Source: Frankia sp. AiPs1
Lineage (GTDB): Bacteria; Actinomycetota; Actinomycetes; Frankiales; Frankiaceae
Length of the DNA stretch: 44,699 nt
Reading direction: 5' to 3'
NCBI RefSeq assembly: GCF_023716945.1
Contig: NZ_JAMQQF010000009.1
Coordinates: 1-44,699 of the forward strand
The stretch's first letter is position 1; every line of letters begins with the position of its first letter. The notes below the pieces were generated by a model. That model searched no databases. It saw only the letters and a list, made by a program, of their open reading frames with translations, and was not told where the DNA came from. Shown in pieces: positions 1 to 8,424 of the stretch. The translations under genes and the position numbers were made by a program.

Positions 1-989
1 TCCCGCACGTCATACGGCGTCCGCGAATCCGTCGGCACCGCCGCGTACAGCCCCGCCGGGTCCACCGCGGGCTCCTCCACCGCCGCGACCGGCCAGGGCC
101 GCGCCGTTCGCGGGGCGAGGCTCGCGACGATCCGGCGCACGGTCTGCAGGGCGTCGGCGTCGTCGTCGGCCAGGTGGTCGACGACTCCGGAGGTCTTCGC
201 GTGCAGCAGGCCACCGCCGAGATCCTCGGCCGCGACCACCTCCCCGGTGGCGGCCTTGACCAGCGGCGGCCCACCCAGGAAGATCGTTCCCTGGTTGCGG
301 ACGATGACCGTCTCATCGCTCATCGCCGGGACGTAGGCGCCGCCCGCCGTCGACGAGCCGAGCACCGCCGCAATCTGGGCGATGCCGGCCTTCGACATCG
401 TGGCCTGGTTGTAGAAGATGCGGCCGAAGTGCTCCCGGTCCGGGAACACGTCGTCCTGCATCGGCAGGAACGCCCCACCGGAGTCGACAAGGTAGACGCA
501 GGGCAGCCGGTTGTGCAGCGCCACCTCCTGCGCCCGCAGGTGCTTCTTCACCGTCAGCGGGTAGTACGTCCCACCCTTGACGGTGGCGTCGTTCGCGACG
601 ACGACGCATTCCCGCCCGGCGATCCGGCCTATTCCCGTGACGATGCCCGCGGCCGGCGCGTCGCCGTCGTACATCCCGTCCGCGGCCAGCGGGGACAGTT
701 CCAGGAAGGGGCTGCCCGGGTCGAGCAGCACCTCGATGCGCTCGCGCGCCAGCAGCTTGCCGCGCTCGACGTGCCGGCGCCGGACGGGCTCGGGCCCGCC
801 CAGGGCCGCCACGGCGAGCCGCTCGCGCAGCTCGGCGACGAGCGCGGTATGGGTCTCGGCGTATCCGCGCGCCGCGGGTGAGGCGGTGTCGACGGCGCTG
901 CGCAGCGGCGGCCCGGTGAGATCCTCCGCCGCCGCTGCCCTGGCACGCGCGGCGGCGGGACCGTCGCCGACGTTAACAGTCGCTAACAT
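1..989 (-). CDS. accD1: Methylcrotonyl-CoA carboxylase carboxyltransferase (beta) subunit, 3' end outside window
   Basis: Carboxyltransferase subunit of a biotin-dependent acyl-CoA carboxylase. It moves CO2 from carboxybiotin to an acyl-CoA, most likely 3-methylcrotonyl-CoA in leucine breakdown. The 329 codons present read [10 protein letters not shown], then [63 protein letters not shown] and [16 protein letters not shown], the order typical of AccD1/LiuB-type proteins. The C-terminal part runs off the left edge. The ATG at 989 fits the family N-terminus, but no clear ribosome site precedes it and an operator half-site overlaps the start region. A leaderless or very short-leader transcript is therefore possible. 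It is divergent from the TetR gene at 1126. The exact substrate is inferred. Confidence 0.88.
972..987. promoter_or_regulatory. Imperfect 16-bp operator next to the accD1 start
   Basis: GTTAACAGTCGCTAAC is an imperfect dyad that touches the accD1 start codon. It lies 28 bp (start to start) from the perfect palindrome at 1000-1015. The same perfect-plus-imperfect arrangement occurs in front of scoA (8204-8244). It is probably a binding site for the adjacent TetR protein; that link is inferred from position and symmetry. Confidence 0.6.
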
Positions 990-999
990 GAGTCCAGAT

Positions 1000-1015
1000 G
1001 TTAGCGCGCGCTAAC
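1000..1015. promoter_or_regulatory. Perfect 16-bp palindromic operator, accD1/TetR intergenic region
   Basis: GTTAGCGCGCGCTAAC is a perfect inverted repeat between the divergent accD1 and TetR genes. The outer arms (GTTAGCG and CGCTAAC) are identical to those at 8204-8219 upstream of scoA, with only the two central bases differing. Size, symmetry and place fit a TetR-family operator controlling accD1 and the regulator itself. Confidence 0.75.
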
Positions 1016-1125
1016 ACTTCCGTCGACCGACCGGCCGGGCCAGGACCCCCGCCCCCGCCCATGCACTTGCGGTTGCCGACCGGTGGACCACGCTTGGTAG
1101 CCTCTGCCCGGAGGAGGACCACATC

Positions 1126-2094
1126 GTGCCGTCGCGTGCCACCCGGGTGACGCCCCCGGCAGGTCTGGCCCCCACCTTCTCCGACGCCCCCTCCGCCACC
1201 GCCGGACCGCCCCCCACCGCACCGGCGCAGGAACCCGGTCCCGCGCCGGCCGCGGTCAAGTCCGCTCCGGCCGGCGCGGCGCCCACCTCGCCCGCGACCG
1301 ACCCGCCCGCTACCGACCCGCCCGACACCGACCCGCCCGTCGCCCTGGCGCCCGTCACCGGCCGTCCCACGACATCCTCGGCCCACCCAGACCCAACCGG
1401 CCCAGAACCGAGCGGCCCAAATCCAACCGGTCCAGAACCGAGCGGTCCAGAACCGAGCGACCTGGCTCCGGGCGACGTGACCCCGAGTGCCGTGACCCCG
1501 AGCGCCGTGACCCCGAGCGCGGCTTCGCCGGTCCGGCGGGCTCGCACCGGGCGTCGGGACGACCTGCTGCAGGCGGCGGCGCGGCTGTTCGCCGAGCGGG
1601 GGTTCCGCGGGGTCGGCATCGAGCAGATCGGCGCCGCCGTCGGCATCCGCGGGCCCGGCATCTACCGGCATTTCGCCAGCAAGGACGCGATGCTCACGGA
1701 GCTGCTCGTGGGCATCAGCGAGCATCTGCTCCACGGCGCTCAGGCCGTGCTGAGCGCGGACCCGAGTGCGTCCGACGCCCTCGACCGCCTCGTCCGCCGG
1801 CATGTCGAGTTCGCCGTCGGCAACCCCGACCTGATCGTCATCCACGACCGTGACCTGCACAGCCTGCCGGCACCGGACGAACACGAGGTCCGCCGGCTAC
1901 AACGCGCCTACGTCGAACTGTGGGTCGGCGTGCTGCGTCGCCTGCGCCCCGAGCTGACCGCTCCCGCCGCCCGCGTCCGCGCCCACGCGATCTTCGGTCT
2001 GATCAACTCGACCCCGCACAGCTCCGGCGCCCTCGACCCCGCGATCAGAGCAACCACACTGCACGCCATGGCGACCGCCGCCGCCACGGCGTAG
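1126..2094 (+). CDS. TetR-family regulator with long disordered N-terminal extension
   Basis: DNA-binding repressor, probably of accD1 and scoAB. The helix-turn-helix region is at residues about 137-185 (RRDDLLQAAARLFAERGF, then IGAAVGIRGPGIYRHFASKD), followed by an all-helical ligand-binding domain. The GTG start at 1126 is supported by GGAGGAGG-like sequence at 1110-1117, so the first ~135 residues are probably translated. They are Pro/Ala-rich and contain 5-residue repeats (GPEPS, VTPSA) encoded by 15-bp tandem units. That tail is far longer than in ordinary TetR proteins of about 200 residues. It is divergent from accD1 with two palindromes between them. Ligand unknown; an acyl-CoA intermediate of leucine catabolism would fit. 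Confidence 0.87.
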   Translation: MPSRATRVTPPAGLAPTFSDAPSATAGPPPTAPAQEPGPAPAAVKSAPAGAAPTSPATDPPATDPPDTDPPVALAPVTGRPTTSSAHPDPTGPEPSGPNPTGPEPSGPEPSDLAPGDVTPSAVTPSAVTPSAASPVRRARTGRRDDLLQAAARLFAERGFRGVGIEQIGAAVGIRGPGIYRHFASKDAMLTELLVGISEHLLHGAQAVLSADPSASDALDRLVRRHVEFAVGNPDLIVIHDRDLHSLPAPDEHEVRRLQRAYVELWVGVLRRLRPELTAPAARVRAHAIFGLINSTPHSSGALDPAIRATTLHAMATAAATA

Positions 2095-2465
2095 TCCCGC
2101 CGCCGGCGGCTAGCACAAACGGCCATCGCGACGTCCGTGGGAAGGATTTCAGCCGCTCACGGTCGTCGTCGGGATGCCCGACTCGCACACAGGTAGCCGT
2201 AGCCGTAGCCGCTGGCGATGGGACAGTCCAGTACACGAGGAGGGGAATCACTCGATCAGATGTCCCCTCGCACCTGACCTGACGCAGAGCGTCGCCACTG
2301 GGCTGCGGTGCGCCCGATTCACTGAGACGCAGACCACCGGGTCCGTCTCGCAGCATGGTCCGCTGCTCGCTGCAAAGCCCATGAGGCCGACAGTGGCGCC
2401 TGGACATGCCTGGTGGCTGCCGTGAGAGCAAGGCCGGCGAGATCCACCACGCTCCAGGCGCCTCA
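2095..2465. other. Gene-free stretch between TetR and LysR genes
   Basis: The TetR and LysR genes converge on this stretch. No reading frame here looks like a known protein, and base composition is less biased than in the flanking genes. A short GCCGCCGGCGGC palindrome at about 2100-2111 might contribute to termination. It could be worn-down former coding DNA, but nothing recognisable remains. Confidence 0.4.
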
Positions 2466-3380
2466 TCAACAGGTTGTGGCCCCAACCTCCCGCGCAGCGG
2501 CAAGGTAGGCGAGAACCAGCGTCCGCTTGTCGTCCTGGCGGGCGGCCACCGCCAGTTGGGACGGGGAAATTCCCCGGACCGGCACGGCGATCACCTCGTC
2601 CCGGGCGACCAGCGGGGCGTTACCGGTGGCCAGCAGCGCCACCCCCTGGCCGCTGGCGACCGCCTCGTGGGTCTCCTCGGCGCTGGCCACCACCCCGCCG
2701 ATCCGCGGCTGGCGACCGTCCCGGGCGTCCAGGGCAAGCCAGTAGTCCCGCAGCGGGCCGGCCTCCGGAGGGAGGGCGAGGAAGGGCTCCTCCAGCAGGT
2801 CGGTGAAGTCCACCTTTCCCTCGGGGTCGGACGCGGCCCGCGCCGCCAAGGGGTGTCCGTCCGGGAGCGCGACCAGCCGAGGCTCGCGGGCCACCACCGC
2901 ATACTGGTAACGGTCATCGTCCGGCAGCGGCAGCCAGACGAAGGCGACGTCGCTGGAACCATCCGCCAACCCGGCGCTGGGATCCGCCCAGTTGACCTGG
3001 CGCAGGACGAGCTGCGCTTCCGGACGGCGGGAGACGAGGCGGGTCCGCAGGGCGGGCAGCAGCCCGCGACCCGGGCTGGTGGACATGCCGATCGCCAGAG
3101 TGCACCGCTCGGCGGTCTTCGCCTCCTCCACCGCCGCCTGCGCGGCCTGCCAGGCGGCCAGCACCGCGCGGGCGTGCGGTAACAGGGCTTCCCCCATCGC
3201 GGTCAACCGCACTGTCCGCCGGTCCCGTTCGAACAGGACCACGCCCAGTTGCTTCTCCAGCATCCGAATCTGCTTGCTCAGAGCGGGTTGGGAGACGAAC
3301 AGTCGCTCGGCGGCGCGGGTGAAGCTCAATTCCTCGGCGACCGAGGTGAAGTAGTACAGGTCGCGCCCATGGACGTTCAT
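2466..3380 (-). CDS. LysR-family transcriptional regulator
   Basis: 304 residues with the standard layout. The N-terminal winged helix-turn-helix (about 1-62: LYYFTSVAEELSFTRAAERL, then SQPALSKQIRMLEKQLGVVL) is followed by a periplasmic-binding-like effector domain. The ATG at 3380 gives the normal LysR N-terminus; a ribosome site is not obvious. It is divergent from the SDR gene at 3486, the classic LysR arrangement, so it probably controls that gene and itself from the ~100-bp gap. A T-N11-A dyad lies across its own start codon. Effector unknown. Confidence 0.92.
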   Translation of the reverse strand: MNVHGRDLYYFTSVAEELSFTRAAERLFVSQPALSKQIRMLEKQLGVVLFERDRRTVRLTAMGEALLPHARAVLAAWQAAQAAVEEAKTAERCTLAIGMSTSPGRGLLPALRTRLVSRRPEAQLVLRQVNWADPSAGLADGSSDVAFVWLPLPDDDRYQYAVVAREPRLVALPDGHPLAARAASDPEGKVDFTDLLEEPFLALPPEAGPLRDYWLALDARDGRQPRIGGVVASAEETHEAVASGQGVALLATGNAPLVARDEVIAVPVRGISPSQLAVAARQDDKRTLVLAYLAAAREVGATTC

Positions 3381-3393
3381 AACTCATGGCTAT
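3379..3393. promoter_or_regulatory. Candidate LysR box (T-N11-A)
   Basis: ATAACTCATGGCTAT is an imperfect dyad matching the loose T-N11-A LysR consensus. It overlaps the LysR start codon in the gap to the divergent SDR gene. The consensus is weak, so this rests mostly on position. Confidence 0.35.
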
Positions 3394-3485
3394 CACAACG
3401 GGACTTGGACGCAGCCCTGATGCCTGGCGAAGGATGGGACCTGCGACGGGACGGCCCCAAACAACAATGAACAAGGGAGATGAAG

Positions 3486-4331
3486 ATGAGCGAGGACGCC
3501 AAGGTCTGGCTGGTCACCGGCGCGAGCAGCGGTTTCGGGCGGGCCATCGCGGAGGCCGCGGTCGCCGCTGGTGACACGGTGATCGGCACGGCCCGGCGGA
3601 CAGCGGCGCTGGACGACCTGGTCGCCGCGTACCCGGACCGGGCGGAGGCGATCAGCTTGGACGTCACCGACAGCGGGCGGATCGATGTGGTGGCCGCCGA
3701 CGTCCTAGCCCGTTACGGCAGGGTGGACGTGCTGGTGAACAACGCCGGCCGCACTCAGGTGGGGGCGTTCGAGGAGACCACCGACCGGGAGCTGCACGAC
3801 CTGTTCGAGCTGCACGTGTTCGGCCCGGCGCGGCTGACCCGGGCGCTGCTGCCGCAGATGAGGGAGCGGGGCAGTGGATCGGTCGTGAACATCAGCAGCT
3901 TCGGCGGGCAGCTGTCCTTCGCCGGGTTCTCCGCGTACAGCGCGACCAAGGCGGCGCTGGAGCAGCTGTCGGAGGGCTTGGCCGACGAGGTGGCGCCGTT
4001 CGGCATCAAGGTGCTGATCGTGGAGCCCGGCGCGTTCCGTACCAACCTGTTCGGCAAGGGTGCGGCGTACTTCTCTGAGGAGAACTCTGCGTACGCGGAG
4101 AAGGTCGGCGCGACCCGGCAGATGGTGCAGGGCAGTGACGGCAGCCAGCCCGGCGACCCGGTGAAGGCCGCGGCGGCGATCCGGCTGGCTCTGGAGGCCG
4201 AGAAGACCCCGCTCCGCCTCGCCCTCGGCGGCGACGCGGTCGACTTCCTGACCGCACACCTGGACTCCGTACGGGCCGAGCTCACCGAGTGGGAGGAGGT
4301 CTCCCGGGGGACGGACTTCGACACGGAATGA
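3486..4331 (+). CDS. Short-chain dehydrogenase/reductase
   Basis: Classical SDR oxidoreductase, 281 residues. It has the Rossmann nucleotide site TGASSGFG near residue 12, NNAG, the catalytic Ser in NISSFGG and the YSATK active-site Tyr/Lys pair. Two ATGs are possible. The one at 3480 directly abuts the AAGGGAG ribosome site, whereas the one at 3486 sits 6-7 bases beyond it, so 3486 is chosen. It is transcribed away from the LysR gene, which probably regulates it. The protein resembles the NAD(P)-dependent 'oxidoreductase, SDR family' group that reduces small ketones or aldehydes. Substrate cannot be told from sequence. Confidence 0.9.
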   Translation: MSEDAKVWLVTGASSGFGRAIAEAAVAAGDTVIGTARRTAALDDLVAAYPDRAEAISLDVTDSGRIDVVAADVLARYGRVDVLVNNAGRTQVGAFEETTDRELHDLFELHVFGPARLTRALLPQMRERGSGSVVNISSFGGQLSFAGFSAYSATKAALEQLSEGLADEVAPFGIKVLIVEPGAFRTNLFGKGAAYFSEENSAYAEKVGATRQMVQGSDGSQPGDPVKAAAAIRLALEAEKTPLRLALGGDAVDFLTAHLDSVRAELTEWEEVSRGTDFDTE

Positions 4332-4525
4332 GAGCCGGGCAGGGCGAGAACCCGGTGCTCGGTGAACTCACTGGTGAAAGGCCTTCCGCAGGGGCGGACG
4401 TCCCCTCATCACAGGAGCCTGACCAAACCCTGCGAACCTCATCAGGCAGGACGCTGGGTAGCCCAATTTCTGACCGGTCACGGACGCAGCGATGAGTTTA
4501 CCCGGTCCGGAGAGTCTCACCAGCG
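4332..4525. other. Intergenic stretch after the SDR gene
   Basis: No supported gene. An imperfect hairpin just after the SDR stop (GAGCCGGG pairing with CCCGGTGCTC, with a bulge) may act as a weak terminator. The rest has less coding-like composition than the neighbours and runs into the decayed fragment at 4526-4816. Confidence 0.3.
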
Positions 4526-4816
4526 TTATCGGGCGGTGGGCTCGAAGTGCTGGTGGAGGTAGTCGGCAGTGGCATCCCACAGCCACGTAGCCGAGAACGC
4601 CGGACGCCGCGCGCGCCACCCCGACCAGCTGCCGACACTGCGCCGGCCGCCCGCACTCGTCGATCAGCGACTCCCACCACCGCGCTGCCGGCGCAGACCC
4701 GGAACGACCTCGGCATGGTCCAGCTCCTCATACCGAACGACGACGTCCAGGATGTCCGCGCTCCGCTGTCGGACAACCTCCGGATCCACCTTCCGGCCAC
4801 CACGATCTTCGTTTGG
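4526..4816 (-). pseudogene. Decayed small gene fragment (one in-frame stop, two frame shifts)
   Basis: On the minus strand one frame reads ADILDVVVRYEELDHAEVVP to LRRQR, then hits a stop (triplet 4664-4666). The neighbouring frame continues naturally as WWESLIDECGRPAQCRQLVG. After a second shift the first frame resumes with PAFSATWLWDATADYLHQHF and ends at 4526. Spliced by eye, this looks like one small protein of about 85-95 residues. No family was recognised. It could be a genuine pseudogene or carry sequencing errors. The plus-strand frames over the same DNA look like shadows. Confidence 0.4.
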
Positions 4817-4851
4817 TCAACTGAGAACCGCCCGCCCAGTCCTCGGTGGGG

Positions 4852-5844
4852 CTATTTGCCCGTGGCGACGGCGACTTCCGCACCGGGCGCGTAGGTCGTC
4901 ACGTTCGACGGAATCGCCTTGAGCTCGTCGATTTTGGCGCAGGCCGGGCACTGTGCATAGCCCGACTGGCGCTGGCGGTTCGCCTCAGCCTCCGCCTTCG
5001 CCTCGGCGACCCGTGCCTGCGCCTCGGTGATCCGCGCAAACGCCGCCTGGGCGCTGTTCACGGCCGCCTGGACGTTCTGCGGCAGCGTGACCCGGGCGAG
5101 GGTGAATCGCAGGTTCTCCAGGAAATGGCCACCGAGATTGTCGTTGAGGTCGGTGGCCAGTGACTTGTTGATCGCGTTCTGGACGGCCTGGATGTTGCCG
5201 TTGCTCGACGCCGCGTTGAGGGCCGTCTGGGCCCCGGCCTGCTGGTTGGCGCCCATCTGGACCAGGGCGCAGGAGGAGACGAGGTCGGCACAGGTGAAGT
5301 TGTTGACCTGCTCACGAAGGTCGTTGTCGATGACCGGCCGAATGATGGCGCCCAGGAACGCGGACCAGCCGTCGTCACCCGACCAGGCGTAGTAAAGCTT
5401 TCCGCCCTTGCTCGCCAGCGGGAACTTCCTGGTGCCGAACTTGTCGTCGAACTGGCGTAGGACGTCGTGGTCGAGGTTGAGGGTGAAGTAGAACGTGCCC
5501 TCGATCCCCATACTCACACCGTCCTTCGACGGTGTCGTCACGACATCGACCGTGCCACGGTCGCTCTCACCGGCAACGGATGTGATCGTGTAGTAGCGCT
5601 GCTGCGCCGGATAGTTGTGCATCGAGGAATACAGGCCGACGTAGGTCCTCGACGAGGCGGGGTTGACGATCTGGCGGATCCGGTGATTGTCGAACGGGCC
5701 ACCGTTGCGGACCACCGCGATCTGCCCGCCCGACGTCGACGCGAACGAACCGAGCGCGCTCGCCCCCACGACCAGGCCGAAGATCACCGCCAGCACTCCC
5801 ACGACGGCACCGGCTCCGAGCCCGATACGCCTACCTGATGACAC
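4852..5844 (-). CDS. SPFH/band-7 domain membrane protein
   Basis: 330 residues starting at a GTG (5844) behind a GGGGAG ribosome site. A single membrane segment (about residues 8-32, rich in Gly/Val/Ala) is followed by a stomatin/prohibitin-like domain at about 40-240 (GGPFDNHRIRQIVNPASS, GIEGTFYFTLNLD). An Ala/Glu/Arg helical segment at about 262-292 is probably a coiled coil (AQARVAEAKAEAEANRQRQ). Near the C-terminus there is a CPAC motif that could bind metal or form a disulfide. Such proteins oligomerise and organise membrane patches; a specific role is not evident. It is a single gene with its own promoter region, diverging from the PNPOx-like gene. Confidence 0.82.
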   Translation of the reverse strand: MSSGRRIGLGAGAVVGVLAVIFGLVVGASALGSFASTSGGQIAVVRNGGPFDNHRIRQIVNPASSRTYVGLYSSMHNYPAQQRYYTITSVAGESDRGTVDVVTTPSKDGVSMGIEGTFYFTLNLDHDVLRQFDDKFGTRKFPLASKGGKLYYAWSGDDGWSAFLGAIIRPVIDNDLREQVNNFTCADLVSSCALVQMGANQQAGAQTALNAASSNGNIQAVQNAINKSLATDLNDNLGGHFLENLRFTLARVTLPQNVQAAVNSAQAAFARITEAQARVAEAKAEAEANRQRQSGYAQCPACAKIDELKAIPSNVTTYAPGAEVAVATGK

Positions 5845-6045
5845 GCGCGCTCCCCTGACCGACGTTGCGACCCGTGGTCAGTATGTCCGGTTTCCGTGGC
5901 CGCATCGACGGAGTTCTCGGGAAGCTGTCCGTGGATCCCGTTCCACCCGTTGGGAGCAGGTAGTACGCGTCGGCATCGCCCCGGGTACACCGGCTGGACC
6001 GGAAATCCGGTGGGCGGGGCATCGCGGCGGTGCCAGGCTGCCCGC

Positions 6046-6696
6046 ATGGAGACTCCGACGGCCGGACCCGCGCATCTCGCCCCCACCCGGGCGCGGGACC
6101 GAATCCATCACGGGACCGCACGGATCCACGCCGTGCTCGACGAGGCGCGGATCTGCCACGTCGGCGTGGTCGTCGACGGCTGGCCGCACGTCCTGCCAAC
6201 GCTGCACGTCCGGCGCGGCGACACCCTCTACCTCCACGGCTCGGCGGGCGGCCGGGTGCTGGCCGCCGGGCGCGCCGGTCGCCTGCCGATCTGCGTCACC
6301 GTCTCGCTGCTCGACGGGCTCGTGCTGGCCCGCTCCGCCGTCCGCCATGCGGTGAACTACCGGTCGGTGCTGGTCCGCGGGCTCGCCTCGGCCGTGCTCG
6401 ACGAGGACGACAAGCGCGCCGTGCTCGCCGCGTTCGTCGACCGGACCGCGCCGGGCCGCTCGGGCGCCTGCCGGCCGGCGAACCGCCGGGAGCTGGCCGC
6501 GACCGCCGTGCTCGCCGTCGCACTCGACGACCCCGGAACGCAGGTGACGCTGAAGGCGCGCACGGGCGGGCCGGTGGACGACGCCGAGGACCTGACCCTG
6601 CCCCACTGGGCGGGGGTGATCCCGGTGCGTACGGTCGAGGGCGCGCCCGAGCCGGCCGAGGACCTGGCCTACCTGAGCGCGCCGATCGGCTTCTGA
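6046..6696 (+). CDS. Pyridoxamine 5'-phosphate oxidase-like flavin-binding protein
   Basis: 216 residues with the split-barrel FMN-binding pattern of the nitroimidazole-resistance/Pyridox_ox_2 group: ARICHVGVVVDGWPHVLPTL, then DTLYLHGSAGGR, and VNYRSVLVRGLASAV. Members bind FMN, haem or F420 and reduce or sequester small molecules. The ATG at 6046 is preferred to an in-frame upstream start because homology begins only after it; its ribosome site is weak. It stands alone between SPFH and scoB. No catalytic assignment can be made. Confidence 0.82.
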   Translation: METPTAGPAHLAPTRARDRIHHGTARIHAVLDEARICHVGVVVDGWPHVLPTLHVRRGDTLYLHGSAGGRVLAAGRAGRLPICVTVSLLDGLVLARSAVRHAVNYRSVLVRGLASAVLDEDDKRAVLAAFVDRTAPGRSGACRPANRRELAATAVLAVALDDPGTQVTLKARTGGPVDDAEDLTLPHWAGVIPVRTVEGAPEPAEDLAYLSAPIGF

Positions 6697-6764
6697 CGCG
6701 GGCCCGCGCTCCCCGTTGGAGCCGCGGCTGGTGCCACGCTGGTGCGGGGGTCGGCGTGGAGGGG

Positions 6765-7406
6765 TCAGTCGAGCTGGATGGTGAGGTCGGGGCCGGTGGC
6801 GGCGCGGACCTCGTCGACGGTGACGCCCGGTGCGAGTTCGCGCAGCACGAGACCGCGGCCCGGCTCGACGTCGAGGACCGCGAGATCGGTGATGACCCGG
6901 TGCACGCAGCGCCGGCCCGTCAGCGGCAGGGAACACTCCCGCACCAGCTTGTGGGTCCCGTCGCGGGCGACGTGCTCCATCATCACGATGACGCGGCGGG
7001 CGCCGTGCACGAGGTCCATCGCACCGCCCATCCCCTTGACCATCTTTCCGGGGATCATCCAGTTCGCGAGATCACCCTGCGCGGAGACCTGCATCGCGCC
7101 GAGCACCGCGACGTCGACATGGCCGCCGCGGATCATCCCGAACGACGTCGCCGAGTCGAAGTACGACGCCCCCGCCAGGACCGTCACCGTCTCCTTGCCG
7201 GCGTTGACCAGGTCCGCGTCGACCCGGTCCGCGCTCGGATAGGGGCCGACCCCGAGGATGCCGTTCTCACTGTGCAGCACCACCGTCACCTCCGCCGGCA
7301 GATGGCCCGGCACCAGCGTCGGCAACCCGATCCCAAGATTGACGTACTGGCCGTCGACCAGCTCCCGCGCCACCCGCGCGGCCAGCCCGTCCCGTGTCAG
7401 CGTCAT
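6765..7406 (-). CDS. scoB: 3-oxoacid CoA-transferase, subunit B
   Basis: Beta subunit of succinyl-CoA:3-ketoacid (acetoacetate) CoA-transferase, 213 residues. The catalytic Glu lies in the diagnostic SENGILG motif (about residue 45). [18 protein letters not shown] and [15 protein letters not shown] are also family hallmarks. Its ATG overlaps the scoA stop (ATGA, 7403-7406), so translation is coupled and the two chains should form one enzyme. It would activate acetoacetate, the end product of leucine catabolism, which fits the shared operator with accD1. Confidence 0.93.
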
Positions 7407-8149
7407 GCCGTCACCGTCCTGCGTTCGATCCGCTTCTCCGGGTCCGGCGCGTGCACCACCCGCTGGACCAGGATCCCCGGGGTGTGGATCTGATCCGGGT
7501 CGAGTTCGCCCGGCTCGACGAGCTCCTCGACCTCGGCGATGGTCACCCGGCCCGCCGCCGCGCACAGCGGGTTGAAGTTCGCCGCGCTCGCCCGGTAGAC
7601 GAGGTTGCCGTGCCGGTCTCCGCGCCAGGCGTGCACCAACCCGAAGTCACAGACGATGCCCCGCTCCAGAACGTACTCGGCGCCGTCGAACACCCGGGTC
7701 TCCTTCGCCGGGGACGCGAGCGCAACGCGCCCGGAGGCGTCGTGGCGCAGCGGGACGCCGCCCTCGGCGACCTGCGTGCCCACCCCGGCCGGGGTGTAGA
7801 ACGCCGGGATCCCCGCCCCGCCGGCCCGCAGCCGCTCCGCGAGCGTGCCCTGCGGCACCAGCTCGACCTCCAGCTCGCCGGCCAGGAACTGCCGCTCGAA
7901 CTCCTTGTTCTCCCCCACATACGACCCGGTCGTGCGCCGAATCCGCCCCGCCCGCAGCAGCAGGCCGAGCCCCCAGTCGTCGACTCCGCAGTTGTTGCTG
8001 ACGGTCTCCAGACCGCTGGTCCCCGCCGCCAGCAGCGCGTCGATCAGGACGCTCGGGATGCCACACAACCCGAACCCCCCGACCGCCAGCGACGCCCCGT
8101 CCGGGATGTCGGCCACCGCCAGGGCCGCACTCGCGACCACCTTGTCCAC
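7403..8149 (-). CDS. scoA: 3-oxoacid CoA-transferase, subunit A
   Basis: Alpha subunit of the acetoacetate CoA-transferase, about 248 residues: [73 protein letters not shown]. The GTG at 8149 is chosen. GGGAGG lies 11 bases ahead, the protein N-terminus then matches the family, and the two operators at 8204-8244 fall upstream rather than inside the gene. An in-frame ATG at 8239 would add about 30 unconserved residues and lie within the operator. First gene of the scoAB operon. Confidence 0.92.
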
Positions 8150-8203
8150 CCGGGCACCCGCCTCCCGCAGCAGCGGACGGCACCGCACCGGAGCCACCCG
8201 CAC

Positions 8204-8219
8204 GTTAGCGTTCGCTAAC
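8204..8219. promoter_or_regulatory. 16-bp palindromic operator upstream of scoA
   Basis: GTTAGCGTTCGCTAAC has GTTAGCG and CGCTAAC arms identical to the perfect palindrome at 1000-1015, with only the two central bases different. It lies 55 bp before the chosen scoA start. It is the strongest evidence that the TetR protein encoded at 1126 also controls scoAB. Confidence 0.75.
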
Positions 8220-8228
8220 CCAGACGAA

Positions 8229-8244
8229 GTTAGCCACAACTAAC
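8229..8244. promoter_or_regulatory. Second, imperfect operator copy upstream of scoA
   Basis: GTTAGCCACAACTAAC keeps the outer GTTAG/CTAAC half-sites. It lies 25 bp (start to start) from the palindrome at 8204, mirroring the doublet at accD1. Confidence 0.55.
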
Positions 8245-8424
8245 ATCGGCGTCCAGTCCCCTCGGCCCGATCGGGCTCGGGCGATGTCCGGGCCGGGCCC
8301 GCAGCCCGCCCGGCGCACCGTGACCCGCCGCCGCGGACGAGATCGGCGTGGCAGAGCCCGCCTGGCACTGCTCACCCATCCACACTTCCTCTCCCCCATC
8401 CACACCTCCTCGCCGACACGAAAG

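Follow-up and report, generated by a model that had tools for sequence, protein, structure and literature searches.

A probable BkaR regulon in Frankia, with operator doublets lying in predicted promoters of accD1 and scoA

The closest described counterpart of the system considered here is the BkaR regulon of mycobacteria. BkaR (Rv2506 / MSMEG_4718, also named Fad35R) is a TetR family regulator for which the parts of the original report covered here describe binding as a dimer, a pair of palindromes in the bkaR-accD1/fadD35 region and a further site that is bound at scoA (Balhana et al. 2013, PMC3920632). According to the same parts BkaR represses its own gene, and its deletion derepresses the accD1 operon; they mention a possible -35 site and contain no statement that an operator supplies the -10 element. 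The accD1/accA1 genes of methylcrotonyl-CoA carboxylase have been assigned to amino-acid degradation, with BkaR cited (PMC4347857, in the part covered). We compare with this system a stretch of 44,699 nucleotides from Frankia sp. AiPs1 (contig NZ_JAMQQF010000009.1, called the window hereafter), in which a tetR gene is accompanied by accD1, by the 3-oxoacid CoA-transferase genes scoAB and by paired palindromes. Frankia is a genus of nitrogen-fixing plant symbionts.

The window very probably contains the Frankia version of the BkaR regulon, in which the TetR protein would govern accD1-accA1-acyl-CoA dehydrogenase and scoAB through doublets of operators, O1 and O2 (Table 1). This reading draws on the sites, their linkage to genes, the family of the regulator, conservation and a promoter-like geometry, all read from DNA and protein sequences, while dimer binding and repression are carried over by analogy from the mycobacterial experiments. 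As for BkaR, whose gene is divergent from accD1-accA1-fadE19 in M. smegmatis, the regulator belongs to the TetR family, two GTTAN8TAAC palindromes are found at the accD1 promoter, and scoA has an operator, as in M. tuberculosis (PMC3920632, parts covered). The Frankia system differs in carrying two scoA sites rather than the single one listed for mycobacteria in those parts, in the separation of scoAB by inserted genes, in a variable N-terminal extension of the repressor and in a tetR promoter that apparently lies outside the operators.

A preliminary description of this DNA, made from the letters alone, had pointed to one perfect palindrome at two places, each with an imperfect partner 25-28 bp away, and to no further perfect copy in the window. 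All of this is borne out. In a pattern search GTTAGCGNNCGCTAAC matched without mismatch at 1000-1015 and 8204-8219, with partners at 972-987 (two mismatches) and 8229-8244 (three mismatches); start-to-start spacing is 28 bp in the accD1 pair and 25 bp in the scoA pair. With one extra match at three mismatches (36347), the window total is five against a shuffle mean of 1.31, and at least five were obtained in 0 of 100 shuffles. The absence of other perfect copies extends to the source genome (7.35 Mb, 1203 contigs, 92% complete), where exactly two exist, both within the window, and where no copy with one mismatch was found, the next class having two. The clustering at leucine and ketone-body genes that had been predicted for a genome scan is therefore observed, 2/2 perfect copies lying at accD1 and scoA.

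That chance palindromes happen to occupy two promoters is an explanation to which we give almost no credence. It can appeal to the matches with up to three mismatches, which are no commoner in the source genome (137) than those of a reversed control (130), so that we place evidential weight only on the perfect copies and on the doublet arrangement. Perfect copies are, however, confined to these two loci. Two copies of the doublet pattern are present in the source genome, and 10 of 40 genomes (source included) contain it; its reversed control gives 0 in all 40 and 0 in the 295 genomes surveyed below, and the arrangement is conserved across families. Chance origin is rejected on the shuffles, the genome scan and these zero controls. 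The looser pattern GTTAN8TAAC has eight sites in the source genome versus four for the reversed control. Four of the eight constitute the two window doublets and the others, none of GTTAGYG type, lie on contigs C542, C566, C682 and C969.

The presence of a TetR gene beside the first site was confirmed; it spans 1126-2094 and is divergent from accD1. The best solved relatives of its product are 6yl2/4g12 (186 bits). Mce3R, a TetR family member of a lipid regulon, comes next with 99 bits, followed by the unnamed regulator 2ibd (60) and KstR2 (47). Structure 4G12 is Fad35R (PMC4418694, part covered), which is equated with BkaR (PMC3920632, parts covered). The core of the window protein narrowly passes NCBIfam model NF050111, that of the SACE_7040 family of Saccharopolyspora erythraea (251.6, cut-off 250); the whole open reading frame including the extension scores 249.1, just under the cut-off. 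The model is also passed by proteins of L190 (family f4, 271), L191, L207 and L100, and is just missed by L066 (243.9) and a truncated piece of L228 (241.4), so that 5 of 7 informative proteins pass, window core included. In a tree of 38 rows (32 plus six paralogs from the locus on contig C315, with no wider TetR families, the midpoint root being for drawing only), the window TetR clusters with the TetRs of accD1 loci and the C315 paralogs are separate. These comparisons place it in the BkaR / SACE_7040 family. The closest named contigs for the protein are those of Frankia tisae, gtarii and torreyi (96-98% identity).

The sites might instead serve another regulator, such as the TetR paralog at G000:C315:95037-95537, the adjacent TetR controlling something else. 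This paralog shares 48% identity with the query, is found in the six Frankia genomes that also have the doublets and is preceded by a related palindrome, GTTAGGGGGCGTTAGC, starting 137 bp before its match. However, that upstream site differs in one arm, a branch of 1.94 with 100/100 support separates the six paralogs from the remaining 32 rows (midpoint root), and in other families the sites adjoin BkaR-type tetR. Control by the C315 paralog is unlikely in view of the tree separation, and service to any regulator other than the adjacent TetR appears very unlikely to us. The paralog (G000:C315:94900-95537; L050, L076) lies near a pantoate-beta-alanine ligase gene, and its upstream palindrome GTTAGGGG[AG]CGTTAGC is kept in four of the six Frankia paralogs and altered in two.

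Assignment of the sites to the adjacent BkaR-type TetR agrees with their distribution among close relatives. Both doublets are retained with the same spacings in 6/6 same-genus genomes having a TetR at 96-100% identity (source included). In G010 the tetR-accD1-scoAB cluster spans two contigs. Seven other genomes of the genus that were sampled carry no TetR of that identity and have accD1 of a 71-79% type; one of them, G011, has a 54% BkaR-type TetR with a site, and a site also upstream of accD1. In G016 scoB-scoA, tetR and accD1 are neighbours with sites between them. Where tetR, accD1 and scoA are unlinked, in G021 and G017, each of them still has a site. No GTTAN8TAAC site was found at the second accD1 (C411, 76%) or the second scoA (C403, 72%) of the source genome. 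The suggestion that shared sites unite accD1 and scoAB in one TetR regulon thus gains computational support, the sites following these genes even where they are unlinked. The 5 kb of unrelated genes noted between the two sites proved to be variable: four intervening genes were searched, of which L062 has none, L061 the PNPOx-like gene alone, L058 and L059 the Band7 gene alone and L057 both. Since these genes differ among close relatives, we read the gap as insertions.

A narrower regulon, in which the TetR represses accD1 only and the scoA sites are of little effect, leaving scoAB effectively outside, would fit the scoA 5' ends that have no GTTAN8TAAC (4 of the 15 fetched, repeats and truncated copies excluded, namely L075, L113, L240 and L244; the other 11 have one). 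It would also fit the mycobacterial case, where the scoA site was shown to be bound and repression of scoA was only predicted (PMC3920632, parts covered). Set against this are the scoA doublet itself, which shares the promoter geometry described below and is kept in all six same-genus genomes, the site at unlinked scoA in G021 and G017, and the second scoA of the source genome, which is without a site. We consider this restriction to accD1 very unlikely and retain scoAB as a member of the regulon.

The position of O1 and O2 relative to conserved promoter-like elements was tallied after removal of L097-L099 (which repeat L059, L057 and L062). The right arm of accD1 O1 is extended to TAACNT in 49/49 distinct doublets, versus 9/49 with T at the equivalent place after O2 and 9/47 in the tetR direction. 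A second block, TNGAC(A/G), is found 11-6 bases upstream of O1 and 17 bp from TAACNT in 53 distinct accD1 stretches. Its bases T, G, A and C are present in 52, 51, 47 and 51 of the stretches, and its last position holds A in 35 or G in 14. Scored against TTGACA, 51/53 of these stretches reach 4 of 6 or better, versus 2/53 after shuffling. The scoA tally comprises seven doublets, the L059 row being an accD1 doublet. In the window the arrangement reads TCGACG-17-TAACAT at accD1 and TGGACG-17-TAACTT at scoA. Because TAACNT and the TNGAC block are conserved at fixed spacing, O1 is placed so that it would fill the -35/-10 spacer and supply the -10 element, and O2 so that it would cover the predicted transcription start. 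Such starts would fall near 991 for accD1 and near 8220 for scoA. The accD1 ATG lies about two bases past its predicted start, which would make its message nearly leaderless. O2 overlaps the accD1 start codon in 15/108 loci, 11 of them in the family of Frankia (3 repeats), the others being L137, L197, L233 and L234, so that this overlap is not general. Position 6 of O1 over the 53 accD1 stretches is mixed (C 27, T 25, G 1), for which reason we do not count the T6/A11 core of mycobacterial operators as family-defining.

We extended the analysis to 295 genomes, using a TetR threshold of E <= 1e-35 and a strict doublet search with reversed control. The TetR is carried by 163 genomes and the strict doublet by 76 (reversed control 0). 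Among the doublet places listed, 75 in 53 of the 76 genomes, 43 have tetR within 2 kb and 32 do not; 13 of these 32, all in family f4, represent a different doublet of GTTACC/GTTATC type, which is the sole doublet type in G196. A set of 121 loci (1.84 Mb) was assembled from the window, two batches of 19 and 42 loci and 59 class loci. This set has 179 GTTAN8TAAC sites (reversed control 2), of which 170 stand at a 5' end of accD1, tetR or scoA. The other nine comprise three single sites, one of them (L243) 42 bp ahead of the aligned accD1 segment, and six that pair up as three doublets; one doublet precedes etfB-etfA and two precede biotin carboxylase genes. The three doublets (L241:5706-5747, L241:2181-2222 and L238:12341-12382) belong to family f33 and likely mark further regulon members. 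The electron-transfer flavoprotein is the electron acceptor of acyl-CoA dehydrogenases.

Several observations weigh against the reading of the window as a BkaR regulon with promoter-embedded doublets, beside the degenerate matches and the scoA ends mentioned above. All 76 strict-doublet genomes fall within the 163 TetR genomes, but the Fisher p of about 1e-24 treats genomes as independent of kinship. The strict doublet is missing from 87 of the 163, and at some fetched TetR loci the sites are single or altered. Selection of the 59 class loci among the 163 TetR genomes was manual and made with TetR and doublet results known, so the rates from them are not unbiased. Among the three genomes of genus g2 the TetR gene (71-73% identity) lacks an upstream site in 3/3 (L063-L065), and scoA has only a site with one mismatch some 200 bp upstream; accD1 there has one site, overlapping the ATG. 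The operator core also departs from the mycobacterial one, Frankia having C6/G11 (at 1000-1015, 8204-8219 and 972-987, with one half of each kind at 8229-8244) versus T6/A11 (GTTANTN4ANTAAC) in mycobacteria, and M. tuberculosis BkaR did not bind the Rv0575c/Rv0576 site, which is one base off the Frankia pattern (both from the parts of PMC3920632 covered). A strict sigma-70 scan found no promoter, so the promoter call rests on conservation. The apparent tetR start region consists of TAGCCT (1098-1103), GGAGGAGG and GTG at 1126; the nearer operator is some 80-110 bp away from promoter and Shine-Dalgarno sequence, and mycobacterial-style autoregulation is not evident. Finally, the M. smegmatis operon includes citE, a hydratase and bkdABC (PMC3920632, parts covered), whereas none of these follows the acyl-CoA dehydrogenase gene of near relative G006 (L188 only, the rest of that genome not being searched).

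On the BkaR reading, the TetR would bind each GTTAN8TAAC palindrome, probably as a dimer as in mycobacteria. At both accD1 and scoA, bound repressor would keep RNA polymerase off the core promoter, O2 coinciding with the predicted start of transcription and, in the case of accD1, with the start codon as well. The ligand that releases the repressor is probably a branched-chain acyl-CoA or a related leucine-breakdown intermediate. Release would switch on accD1-accA1-fadE (methylcrotonyl-CoA carboxylase and acyl-CoA dehydrogenase) together with scoAB, the latter for the end product acetoacetate.

The gene order accD1, biotin carboxylase (accA1), acyl-CoA dehydrogenase was read in G006, the window ending inside accD1; in G006 genes of DUF347 and AbrB type come next (L188). 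The full-length accD1 ortholog of this genome matches AccD1 4q0g with 900 bits and methylcrotonyl-CoA carboxylase beta 3u9r with 769 bits, against about 270 bits or less for most chains named propionyl-CoA carboxylase beta, 9tps (784) being the exception. The best solved match of scoA is succinyl-CoA:3-ketoacid CoA-transferase 3dlx (303 bits). Several relatives have a stop codon inside the aligned scoA stretch; it is read as probably falling within an N-terminal extension.

Table 1. Genes, operators and predicted promoter elements of the window
Feature	Position	Strand	Remarks
accD1 (methylcrotonyl-CoA carboxylase carboxyltransferase subunit), 5' part	1-989	-	Pfam Carboxyl_trans; ATG at 989; continues past window and contig end
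accD1 operator O2, GTTAGCGACTGTTAAC on - strand	972-987		Starts at G of ATG, covers codons 1-6
accD1 predicted -10, TAACAT (O1 right arm)	998-1003	-	Inferred from conserved geometry
accD1 operator O1, GTTAGCGCGCGCTAAC	1000-1015		Pattern search
accD1 predicted -35, TCGACG, 17 bp from -10	1021-1026	-	Inferred from conserved geometry
tetR, bkaR-type repressor gene	1126-2094	+	Helix-turn-helix-bearing core 1531-2091; variable Pro/Ala-rich N-terminal extension 1126-1530
LysR	2466-3380	-	Intervening, outside regulon
SDR	3480-4331	+	Intervening, outside regulon
Band7/SPFH	4852-5844	-	Intervening, outside regulon
Pyridoxamine-oxidase-like (PNPOx-like)	6046-6696	+	Intervening, outside regulon
scoB, 3-oxoacid CoA-transferase subunit B	6765-7406	-	TIGR02428 331 bits, cut-off 243.55
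scoA, 3-oxoacid CoA-transferase subunit A	7403-8149	-	TIGR02429 239.8 bits, cut-off 128.5; likely GTG start 8149, starts further upstream possible
scoA operator O2, GTTAGCGAACGCTAAC on - strand	8204-8219		Pattern search
scoA predicted -10, TAACTT (O1 right arm)	8227-8232	-	Inferred from conserved geometry
scoA operator O1, GTTAGTTGTGGCTAAC on - strand	8229-8244		Pattern search and relatives
scoA predicted -35, TGGACG, 17 bp from -10	8250-8255	-	Inferred from conserved geometry

This kind of regulon is known from mycobacterial BkaR, and that of the window appears real by all sequence tests run. As far as searched, two things are new: that the regulon occurs, and is dispersed, in Frankia and relatives, and that operator and promoter are fused in a common geometry across actinomycetes. 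A literature search (titles and abstract openings, mainly open-access) returned no account of this regulon in Frankia or Streptomyces and no equation of SACE_7040 with BkaR. In the part of its report covered here SACE_7040 is a repressor of morphological differentiation, with no mention of leucine catabolism (PMC3825060). NF050111, named for this developmental regulator of S. erythraea, takes in BkaR-type regulators adjoining accD1. On balance we favor a broader picture, in which the BkaR doublet would be a fused operator-promoter for leucine breakdown across actinomycetes, repressor and polymerase reading the same bases, SACE_7040 would serve its host as repressor of leucine catabolism, its developmental phenotype being a metabolic effect, and the f33 regulon would include etfBA. 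The analysis gives a defined Frankia regulon where there had been a guess from raw sequence, and takes the BkaR picture beyond mycobacteria. The comparison yields a precise and testable promoter/operator architecture and offers a metabolic reading of the SACE_7040 developmental phenotype.

The N-terminal extension of the TetR varies from 51 to 146 residues across the six Frankia orthologs, with tandem repeats in some, and its first 20 or so residues are conserved (PSRATR.TPPAGL..TFSDA). In the three orthologs compared together with their upstream DNA the tetR GTG is preceded by GGAGGAGG or AAGGAGG.

Divergent operators were seen in 35 loci, mostly of Geodermatophilaceae (L100-L112, L114-L132, L134, L136, L138), of which 34 have two sites upstream of tetR at one mismatch. 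These operators are mostly shifted to GTTAACN4GTT[CG]AC, with one arm altered, and the TetR recognition helix reads GVTGPAIYRHF. A comparison of recognition helix and operator bases for co-variation met too few independent changes. The second doublet class of family f4 has arms of GTTACC/GTTACT-N4 type with 25 bp spacing and lies far from bkaR (G026:C1:624350, G180:C1:2945424, G204:C2:1224385 and others); it apparently belongs to another regulator sharing the same architecture.

Sporosarcina is a genus of firmicutes. A contig labelled Sporosarcina beigongshangi (L113) carries a BkaR-type tetR, accD1, scoAB and a GTTAATGACTACTAAC site, and is possibly mislabelled or part of a mixed assembly. 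In the source genome the GTTAN8TAAC site at G000:C682:1669-1684, GTTAGGTTGCCCTAAC, precedes an open reading frame that we take to be a candidate FTR1-like gene, and presumably resembles a DtxR/IdeR iron box.

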